Source: Gammaproteobacteria bacterium
Lineage (GTDB): Bacteria; Pseudomonadota; Gammaproteobacteria; Steroidobacterales; Steroidobacteraceae
Assembly: GCA_024642505.1 (NCBI GenBank)
Contig: JAHEAZ010000027.1
Coordinates: 1-33,364, forward strand
Direction of reading: 5' to 3'
Length of the DNA: 33,364 bases
Below are positions 13,080 to 15,709 of this stretch, piece after piece. The translations under genes were made by a program, and so were the position numbers. The notes under the pieces are model-generated. The model was not told the DNA's origin, did no database searches, and saw only the letters and a program-made list of their open reading frames with translations. The stretch's first letter is position 1. Every line of letters starts with the position of its first letter.

Positions 13080-14645
13080 ATGAGCCGGGGTTTCCTCCGC
13101 AGCACCTCGGTAGTCGGCGGTCTGACCCTCCTGTCGCGGGTCTCGGGCCTGGTCCGCGACATGGTCTATTCGCAGGCCTTTGGCGCCGGGACCTTGATGG
13201 ACGCATTCCTGGTGGCGTTCAAGATCCCGAACTTCCTGCGCCGGCTGACCGCAGAGGGGGCGTTCTCCCAGGCGTTCGTCCCGGTCGTGTCCGAGTACAA
13301 GGTCCGGCGCAGCACCGAGGAGGTGCGCCACCTGGTCGGCGGCGTGTCCGGCACGATCGGATTGCTGCTGTTCGCGGTCACCCTCGTTGGTGTCGTGGCC
13401 GCTCCGGTGCTGGTGCTGGTCTTCGCGCCTGGGTTCCACGATGATGGCGTGCGCTTCGACCTCACGGTCGCGATGCTGCGCCTGACCTTCCCCTACATCC
13501 TGTTCATGTCCCTGGTGGCGCTCGCCAGCGGGGTACTGAACAGCTACGGGCGCTTCGCGGTCCCGGCGTTCACGCCCGTGTTGCTGAACCTGGTGATGAT
13601 TGTCTTCGCCAGCCTGATCGCGCCGCACTTCGATCAGCCGGGCCTGGTATTGGCAGCCGGCGTGTTCGTCGCAGGCCTATTGCAGCTGCTGGTGCAGCTG
13701 CCGGCGCTGAAGTCCATCGGCATGCTTTCCTGGCCGCGCTGGGACCGTGCGCACGAAGGCGTCAGGCAGATTGGTCGACTCATGCTGCCAGGTATCTTCG
13801 GCTCCTCCGTGGCGCAGGTCTCGCTGCTGCTGGATACGCTGATTGCGTCCTTCCTGATGACCGGCTCGATCGCCTGGATGTATTACGCCGACCGGCTGGT
13901 CGAATTTCCGCTCGGCGTGTTCTCCATCGCGCTGGCGACAGTCATCCTGCCGGGGCTGTCTTCGCACCATGCCAGCGACAGCAAGGCCGAATTTGCCGCG
14001 ACGCTCGATTGGGCGCTGAGGATGACCATCGTCATCGTCACGCCGGCGGCCGTCGGCCTGCTGATGCTCGCCGGGCCGCTGACGGCAACCATTTTTGGCT
14101 ACGGTGAATTCGACGCACGCGACGTGAAAATGTCTTCCTACGCGTTGATGGCGTATTCGGTCGGCCTGATCGGCTTCTCCATGGTCAAGGTGCTTGCGCC
14201 CGGCTATTTCGCGCGCCAGGACACCCGCACGCCAGTCAAGGTCGGCATCATTGCGCTCGGCATCAATATGGGATTCAACCTGGCGGTGGTTGTACCGGCC
14301 TACCTGGCCGGCTTTCCGGCTCCGCATGCACTGCTGGCGTTCTCGACTGGCATGTCGGCCTTCGTCAACAGCGCGCTGCTGTACCGGGGCCTCAGGCGTA
14401 CCGGTGTATACGCGCCTTCGCAGCGCTGGCGGCGGCTGGCGCCACAGGTGCTCGGGGCCAACGTTGCCATGGCAGCCTTCCTCTGGTGGGCGGCGGGTGA
14501 CTGGGCGGCCTGGTCCGGGATGGCGGCGCTCCAACGGATCCTGATGACGGTTGCTTGTGTCGCCGGAGGCGGTACGGTCTATTTCGTCACGCTTTGGGTC
14601 CTGGGCGCACGGCCGGGAGACTTCCGCGGTGCCAGCTCCCGCTAA
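13080..14645 (+). CDS. murJ: Lipid II flippase MurJ
   Basis: This 521-residue integral membrane protein is the MurJ/MviN flippase, which moves lipid-linked peptidoglycan precursors across the inner membrane. The N-terminus shows the family signature (TSVVGGLTLLSRVSGLVRDMVYSQAFG, in part), followed by FLVAFKIPNFLRRLTAEGAFSQAFVPV (in part) with basic residues lining the cavity. About 14 hydrophobic segments fit the usual topology and length. The ATG has no strong ribosome site. The stop codon lies inside a long inverted repeat. Position between rpsT and ribF is conserved in gammaproteobacteria. Confidence 0.96.
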   Translation: MSRGFLRSTSVVGGLTLLSRVSGLVRDMVYSQAFGAGTLMDAFLVAFKIPNFLRRLTAEGAFSQAFVPVVSEYKVRRSTEEVRHLVGGVSGTIGLLLFAVTLVGVVAAPVLVLVFAPGFHDDGVRFDLTVAMLRLTFPYILFMSLVALASGVLNSYGRFAVPAFTPVLLNLVMIVFASLIAPHFDQPGLVLAAGVFVAGLLQLLVQLPALKSIGMLSWPRWDRAHEGVRQIGRLMLPGIFGSSVAQVSLLLDTLIASFLMTGSIAWMYYADRLVEFPLGVFSIALATVILPGLSSHHASDSKAEFAATLDWALRMTIVIVTPAAVGLLMLAGPLTATIFGYGEFDARDVKMSSYALMAYSVGLIGFSMVKVLAPGYFARQDTRTPVKVGIIALGINMGFNLAVVVPAYLAGFPAPHALLAFSTGMSAFVNSALLYRGLRRTGVYAPSQRWRRLAPQVLGANVAMAAFLWWAAGDWAAWSGMAALQRILMTVACVAGGGTVYFVTLWVLGARPGDFRGASSR

Positions 14646-14703
14646 TGCGGGGACAGTTTACCTATATTGCGCCGCCATATAGGTAAACTGTCCCCGCATT
14701 AGC
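14641..14703. repeat. 27-bp perfect inverted repeat overlapping the murJ stop
   Basis: The left arm (14641-14667) and right arm (14677-14703) are exact reverse complements across the 9-base loop TGCGCCGCC. The arms contain GCGGGGACAGTTTACC. The murJ TAA (14643-14645) lies inside the left arm. No T-run follows, so it is not a standard intrinsic terminator, though such a hairpin could protect the murJ mRNA end. The GGGGACAGT core is shared with the rpmA-obgE palindromes. Confidence 0.9.
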
Positions 14704-14712
14704 GTCGGGATG

Positions 14713-14742
14713 TTGCGGCGCGAAAACCCCTATACTTACAAT
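14713..14742 (+). promoter_or_regulatory. Probable sigma-70 promoter of ribF operon
   Basis: TTGCGG (14713-14718) and TACAAT (14737-14742) are 18 bases apart, just after the inverted repeat and 37 bases before ribF. A second -10-like hexamer, TATACT, overlaps at 14731-14736. The -10 is good and the -35 is partial. Confidence 0.5.
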
Positions 14743-14779: not shown

Positions 14780-15709
14780 ATGAAGATTGTCCGCGGCCTG
14801 ACCAATGCCCGTCCGTCCGATCGAGGCTGCGTGCTGACGATCGGTAATTTCGATGGGCTGCACCTTGGCCACGAGGCGATCGTCGGTCACCTTGCCGCGC
14901 GCGGCCGCGAGCACGGCTTGCCGACCGCGCTGCTCACCTTTGAGCCGAATCCGCGCGAGTACTTCGATCCGGCCAACGCGCCGGCGCGGCTGATGCGCCT
15001 GCGGGACAAGGCGGCGCGCCTCGCCGAGCTGGGCCTCGACCGCCTGATCCTGCTCAAGTTCGACCAGCGCCTGCGGGCATGGAATGGCCAGGAGTTCATC
15101 GAGCGCGTCCTGGTCGAGGCGCTGGGCGCGCGGCATGTCGTGATCGGCAGCGCGTTTCGTTTCGGCAAGGGACGCAGCGGCACGGTCGAGCTGCTCAGGC
15201 AGGCGGGCCGGCAACTCGGATACAACGTTGACGAGGTCGGCGCCGTCATCATTGACGGCGAGCGCGTCAGCTCGACGCGCGTCCGCGCCGCACTGGCACG
15301 CGGCGACCTGGTAACGGTCCGGCGCCTGCTCGGGCGCGACTACCGCATGACCGGGAGGGTCATGGAGGGCCGTCGCCTCGGGCGCACGCTCGGCTATGCG
15401 ACCGCCAACCTCCGCCTGCACCGGCGGGTGTCGCCGGTGGCCGGCGTTTTTGCGGTGCGCGTGCACGGCGTGGACGGCAGAACCCGGCCGGGTGTCGCCT
15501 CGGTGGGTTCGCGCCCGACCGTCGGCGGCGGCGAGATCCTGCTCGAGGCGCACGTGTTCGACTGGCAGGGCGACCTCTACGGGCGTTACCTTGGTGTGGA
15601 CTTCGTCGCCAAGCTGCGTGAGGAATCGAAGTTTCCGGATCTCAACTCGCTGGTCGAGCGGATGCACGTGGACGCGCGCGAGGCGCGGCAGGTACTCGCC
15701 ACCGGCTGA
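14780..15709 (+). CDS. ribF: Bifunctional riboflavin kinase / FAD synthetase
   Basis: This 309-residue enzyme phosphorylates riboflavin to FMN and then adenylates FMN to FAD. The N-terminal adenylyltransferase domain has the nucleotide motif [10 protein letters not shown] and the SSTRVR motif. The C-terminal kinase domain starts at about 190. Its ATP/metal motif reads GYATAN where most relatives have G-F/Y-PTAN, so the proline is alanine while Thr and Asn are kept. The FMN-binding GxDFxFG segment reads GSAFRFG, with alanine for the usual aspartate. Both changes are modest and the enzyme is probably active. The stop overlaps the ATG of the next frame by one base (TGATG), placing it in an operon with ileS, lspA and ispH. 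Confidence 0.94.

Follow-up and report, generated by a model that had tools for sequence, protein, structure and literature searches.

A palindrome spanning the murJ stop codon in a gammaproteobacterial genome is probably one copy of a transposase-linked, TIR/TIRYT-type repeat family

Several families of short bacterial repeats have been linked to tyrosine transposases. REPs, of which the classic kind carries a GTAG end, show a preference for gene ends, where the GTAG often supplies the TAG stop codon, according to Di Nocera et al. (2013; PMC3733652). The same authors describe a second kind, the TIRs, whose GGGGWSAS inverted repeats flank a RAYT-like tyrosine transposase gene (TIRYT) to form TIRtrons, and which are moderately abundant in some genomes, many of them in dimers or clusters. 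In the classification of TnpA-Y1 proteins by Quentin et al. (2018; PMC6006769), subclass 2.1 comprises tyrosine transposases associated with GGGG[AT][CG]A[CG] inverted repeats, is described with a C-terminal HTH domain, and is stated to cover 291 of the 292 sequences in RAYT group 1 of Bertels et al. A literature search on RAYT group 1 returned nothing new. Here we compare a palindrome at the end of murJ with these systems and conclude that it probably belongs to a known but little studied kind of repeat family.

The window, i.e., the whole stretch of 33,364 nucleotides that was analysed, carries murJ (13080–14645, forward strand; 521 amino acids; TIGR01695, 461 bits), which is followed in the same direction by ribF (14780–15709, forward strand; NF004159, TIGR00083). 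A perfect inverted repeat lies across the murJ stop codon, with a left arm at 14640–14667 (forward), a loop of 9 nt at 14668–14676 and a right arm at 14677–14704 (reverse), and extends to 32 nt per arm at 97% when the stringency is lowered. The original prediction had correctly described the arms as exact and the loop as 9 bases, although the arms measure 28 bp rather than 27, and it had rightly placed the stop codon (TAA, 14643–14645) inside one of them, the left. Each arm contains a conserved terminal inverted repeat (TIR) core, GGGGACAGTTTAC (14649–14661, forward; 14683–14695, reverse). Taking the end of the family consensus (AAWNC, position -5) as the boundary, the inserted element would be 57 bp long (14644–14700), with the ends AATGC and GCATT. 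This palindrome is far above chance: once the element is removed from the window, the arms of the longest remaining perfect inverted repeat (loops of 3–60) measure 12 bp, and in 20 base-shuffled windows the longest arms were 9–14 bp. As RNA the hairpin folds at -59.5 kcal/mol (z -11.9). With DNA parameters the arm pair folds at -33.9 kcal/mol (z -12.4), whereas the single arms alone reach -2.3 and -2.5 kcal/mol (z -0.7 and -1.4), little better than shuffled sequences. No U-run follows the stem, as had been predicted, since the 8 nt beyond CCCC read GCATTAGC in both directions. An intrinsic terminator scan, which accepts only loops of 3–8, gave no match at the hairpin, and at Rfam gathering thresholds the window yielded only two tRNAs, neither of them the hairpin. 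The predicted recurrence of the core GGGGACAGT elsewhere in the window did not hold up: as an exact 9-mer it is confined to the two arms, and when one mismatch is allowed there are five matches in all against 7.0 expected, which is chance level. Between the hairpin and ribF lies a -10-like box, TATACT (14731–14736, forward strand), that may have a promoter role; a promoter scan of the window reported nothing at this position. In 18 of 29 relatives (L058–L086) a TATAAT or TATACT is found, by raw count, no more than 130 nt from where murJ ends, and in several relatives (e.g., L068, L075, and L080) the murJ stop TAA is itself part of a TATAAT.

On the scale of the genome (3.1 Mb in 156 contigs, with 4.2% estimated contamination), the arm is multicopy, as the original prediction had proposed to check. 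The sequence GGGGACAGTTTACC occurs 22 times, mostly in inverted pairs, and the pattern GGGGACAG-N(4-90)-CTGTCCCC retrieves 28 inverted pairs compared with none for the reversed control. Twenty-five of these pairs share a GGGGACAGT[T/G]TAC arm and constitute one family, to which the analyses of the family are restricted; the other three have a different sequence after GGGGACAGT. The consensus arm of the 25 copies is AAWNC-GGGGACAGTTTAC-Y-T-A-W-W-T-S. Flanks and loops differ from copy to copy, and the flanks are symmetric and, as far as the occupied sites alone show, have no direct repeat of the kind that the target-site duplication of a MITE would leave. The start of one contig (C87:1-34) repeats, in reverse, the sequence at one such element in another (C136:352-425), where the assembly seems to break.

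The original prediction had pointed to a REP-associated tyrosine transposase gene, and a profile search with PF01797 found three Y1 genes in this genome. One of them, on contig C44, encodes a protein of 219 amino acids and is framed by this arm in inverted orientation (GGGGACAGTTTACTTATATG), 810 bp from end to end, with its own stop codon inside one arm. Neither of the other two qualified as the source of the arm: the second (C111, L054) has a single GGGACAG, unpaired and more than 1 kb away, and the third (C112, L053) has no GGGACAG. The C44 protein matches Y1_Tnp above the cut-off, scores 75.1 bits against the NCBI model for REP-associated tyrosine transposases (NF047646), under the cut-off of 80, and matches E. 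coli TnpA-REP (PDB 4er8) at E=4.5e-8. Its translation contains HVH and YTELNP, corresponding to the HUH and Y---NP motifs, and it resembles the TnpA-Y1 proteins of subclass 2.1 in this respect. However, Pfam at E<=10 finds only Y1_Tnp, at residues 15–121 of 219, and leaves the C-terminal part, where an HTH domain would be expected from the description of the subclass, without any model.

These features fit the published TIR/TIRYT repeats and not the classic GTAG REPs. The likeness to TIRs lies in the GGGGWSAS motif, represented by GGGGACAG in both murJ arms, in the inverted copies of the same repeat around a Y1 tyrosine transposase gene, and in a genomic family often arranged as dimers. GTAG REPs, BIMEs/REPINs and RAYTs likewise involve short palindromes at gene ends and a related transposase. 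However, neither GTAG nor CTAC is present at 14640–14704, and in REPs and REPINs a single repeat is itself a hairpin, whereas here only the pair of arms folds. The mobile REP-like element of the original prediction stands insofar as the repeat is multicopy and accompanied by a tyrosine transposase gene, while its assignment shifts from REP to TIR/TIRYT.

The correspondence between arms and transposases extends beyond this genome. Relatives of the C44 protein were retrieved from genome_contigs, where the best 80 of 221 matches were kept and 77 were analysed after three with short flanks were dropped; they share 53–67% identity, and their titles are mostly gamma- or deltaproteobacterial. Within this best-80 set, a flanking inverted repeat scoring at least 14 was found at 47 of 77 relatives compared with 0 of 77 with shuffled flanks, and the best flanking inverted repeat consisted of GGGGWSAS arms in 42 of 77, with arms such as GGGGACAGTTTACTTAATT and GGGGACAGTATACTTAATT recurring. 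In a search of close relatives (30 loci, including our own), manual reading identified GGGGWSAS arms as the best inverted repeat in six; the remaining loci, many of which are partial or distant matches, have other arms or none. Across 59 genomes, at least three GGGGACAG pairs were present in 7 of 16 with a transposase match (E<=1e-20) compared with 1 of 43 without (Fisher p=0.0002; both thresholds were set by the analyst), and in 6 of 15 compared with 1 of 43 when our own genome was excluded (p=0.0007). There are exceptions in both directions, since 9 of the 16 genomes with a match have fewer than three pairs, and one genome (G050) has three pairs but no transposase match at E<=1e-20. The single-contig genome G015 has two transposases with different arms, GGGGACAGATCTATTT and GGGGACATGCCTATTT; one gene has AAAAAGGGGACAGATCTATTTT on both sides and the other AAAGGGGACATGCCTATTT. 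This genome contains 35 GGGGACAG pairs, with the first arm in 33 of the 34 listed, and 55 GGGGACATGCC pairs, some of these counts being overlapping spans. The second arm, GGGGACAT (the GGGGACATGCC arm), deviates from GGGGWSAS at its last base, and the ATCTATTT arm occurs in none of the 28 GGGGACAG pairs of our own genome. Dimers of another arm type, GGGGACAGGCACC, were seen in G052 (C5, C217), and in G057 murJ is preceded, at a distance of about 120 bp, by a GGGGACAGATTTATTTTT dimer (C52:15567-15639).

MurJ was found in 58 of the 59 genomes, our own included, and the murJ 3' ends of 49 relatives were scanned, 29 with GGGGACAG/CTGTCCCC and 20 more with GGGACAG/CTGTCCC; another eight, whose MurJ matches are distant or partial, are not included. 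None of the 49 examined murJ ends carries the element, which argues that the murJ copy is a lineage-specific insertion; a sequence conserved as a single copy in all relatives, which would have spoken against mobility, is not what was found. The original prediction went on to suggest that the element had supplied the end of the gene. This is excluded for the protein, because MurJ stops at the same aligned residue (...SR) in the congeners G001 and G005, both without the element (PGDFRGASSR here, PGDFRGARSR in G001, and PGEFRGAGSR in G005), and its C-terminus is thus native. Placing the ends of the element at the consensus boundary (-5) leaves flanks of CGC T | AG CG, i.e., CGC TAG, and the murJ stop codon of G001 is TAG. 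The element probably changed the murJ stop from TAG to TAA and left MurJ unaltered, in which case no more than the second and third bases of this codon would have come from it; the exact insertion point is inferred, because the symmetry of the palindrome permits other cut points. MurJ identity to the nearest genomes is about 80%, their murJ-end spacers have diverged, and a base-exact empty site was resolved at none of murJ, two sites on C94 and the C151 site. At a further site, on C16, the flanks gave separate matches. At the G005 junction that matches C151:51576 of our genome (L251), two GGGGACTGTCCCC palindromes lie between convergent genes where our genome has a GGGGACAGTTTACC element.

Such an element may nevertheless be thought of as the host's own transcription terminator or mRNA-stabilizing hairpin at the end of murJ, rather than as a mobile sequence, and its stability and its place at a gene end would agree with this. 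The genomic distribution adds to the likeness, because the copies cluster at 3' ends: in our genome 24 of 25 copies, or 39 of 50 sides, have a facing stop codon no more than 60 nt away (taken as the end of an open frame of 120 codons or more), and a copy is often faced by stops on either side, compared with 17% (any side) and 9% (per side) for random positions in the same loci. In G015, where 20 copies from 20 regions were picked by the analyst among the listed pairs, the same holds for 16 of 20 copies and 23 of 40 sides, compared with 11% and 6% of 207 control positions. Further, at least four T in the 8 nt beyond the arm end are found on 39 of 40 sides in G015. However, this is so on only 11 of 50 sides in our own genome and not at murJ, whose GC-rich hairpin at a gene end resembles an intrinsic terminator but lacks the U-run. 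A host-owned hairpin would also have to be reconciled with the lack of any Rfam match at gathering thresholds, with its absence from all examined murJ ends of relatives and with the same arm flanking a transposase gene. Therefore, as the origin of the murJ palindrome, a host hairpin is disfavoured and in our judgement unlikely.

A second possibility, which we regard as similarly improbable, is that two single terminal repeats were inserted independently and in opposite orientation, one at each end of a piece of host DNA. In its favour, the loops of our genome are mutually unrelated (253 pairs among 21 loops, all from copies at least 64 bp long, and both inner ends of the transposase element; mean score 7.0 compared with a null of 6.8), while the total length from GGGG to CCCC falls within 70–91 bp in 20 of 25 copies. 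Yet the two arms covary: positions -6, -3, -2, 14, 15, 17, 18, and 20 vary across copies but are matched within a copy (uncorrected p of 0.004 or less each against shuffled pairings, with about 35 positions compared). Three G015 copies have a loop in common, and the murJ loop is only 9 nt long. Where a loop could be compared with the spacer of a congener, at C151 and in G001, the sequences showed no likeness (p=0.53), though the lengths are similar (88 and 86 nt), and the loop was accordingly rejected as a native host spacer at this site.

The perfection of the arms could instead suggest that the palindrome was formed in place during replication, by template switching or quasipalindrome correction. 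The symmetry indeed exceeds the family consensus with copy-specific bases, since positions -6, -7, and -9 are matched in 72, 56, and 44% of the copies in our genome compared with 26, 33, and 26% in shuffled pairings, although this extension is short and position -8 is not clearly above the shuffled level. However, such a process alone cannot account for a shared 13-bp core that is present at about 25 sites and also on both sides of a transposase gene, and we consider it very improbable as the origin, while it may secondarily keep the arms perfect. An assembly artefact, which a draft of 156 contigs with some estimated contamination might bring to mind, is hardly credible given 25 copies with differing flanks and loops and like structures in other genomes, including the single-contig assembly G015.

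Taken together, we hypothesize, with a probability of roughly 85%, that the murJ hairpin represents a mobile palindrome of the TIR/TIRYT type, non-autonomous and linked to a transposase, of which one copy entered the murJ stop codon after the split from the congeners. The arm belongs to a multicopy family, matches the arms of the C44 transposase gene, covaries within copies, lies at gene ends and is absent at this place from the examined relatives. The element would consist of two inverted terminal repeats, AAWNC-GGGGACAGTTTAC-YTAWWT, around a short loop, and would presumably be mobilized by the HUH/Y1 tyrosine transposase (TIRYT) encoded on C44 in the same genome. Most likely this enzyme, of a single-strand-processing kind, would recognize the folded arm pair and move it. 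Simple copying of the whole element would not predict the unrelated loops of our genome; moreover, movement is suggested only by presence and absence between species, and no base-exact empty site was found for murJ. Copies behind stop codons would survive as nothing is broken there, and the A-rich ends of the element could complete a stop codon that was cut, the change from TAG to TAA at murJ being a probable case. The effect at murJ would probably go no further than a stable 3' hairpin in the murJ-ribF transcript, just upstream of TATACT. A ribosome terminating on murJ would sit over the foot of the stem. Competition between ribosomes and hairpin formation, as originally predicted, is plausible.

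How the palindrome might choose its sites is suggested by G015, where copies are nested. Fourteen of the 20 copies are centred in a longer palindrome, with an outer symmetry of 21–50 bp on both sides and a few mismatches in some. In nine of these 14 the outer palindrome is a GGGGACATGCC pair, so that GGGGACAGATCTATTT dimers are centred in GGGGACATGCCTATTT dimers in 9 of the 20 copies (L265–L284; e.g., L283, approximately 512–666). By hand count, 11 of the 50 listed GGGGACATGCC pairs (55 in all) contain an inner GGGGACAGATC element. At the junction corresponding to L283, no such element occurs in the short spacer of the congener G035, and G060 (L301) has another palindrome, of the GGGGTCAG type (GGGGTCAGACCTATTTTCC); for a second G015 site the flanks are kilobases apart in both G035 and G060, and the ends read there show no element. 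Nesting, unrelated loops and arm covariation are additions to the TIR/TIRYT features described in the consulted passages of the two source papers (PMC3733652; PMC6006769), and a literature search on nested or convergent-gene palindromes returned nothing new. The position at the exact centres of other palindromes favours site choice (a hairpin tip) over selection (a gene end), and insertion of the palindrome at hairpin tips is perhaps what occurs. More tentatively, and with less than even odds, GGGGWSAS/TIRYT palindromes might insert at the centres of hairpins, chiefly terminators behind stop codons and one another, and thereby build nested stacks, while their own ends (AAAAA-GGGG...CCCC-TTTTT in G015) would replace the disrupted terminator and complete the cut stop codon.

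Rather than a regulatory device of the host, the murJ hairpin is thus most likely an insertion, specific to this lineage, from a class of repeats that has been little studied; the term TIRYT turned up in only two papers of the literature searched. Arms that are particular to each transposase, copies adjacent to stop codons or at the centres of palindromes, and T-runs on both sides of the copies in one genome together lead to a testable idea of site choice and host tolerance. If copies act as terminators, the family would provide genes with ready-made ends; and if the hairpin-tip reading is true, the palindrome would be mobile DNA that seeks out hairpin tips and mends the gene end where it inserts.
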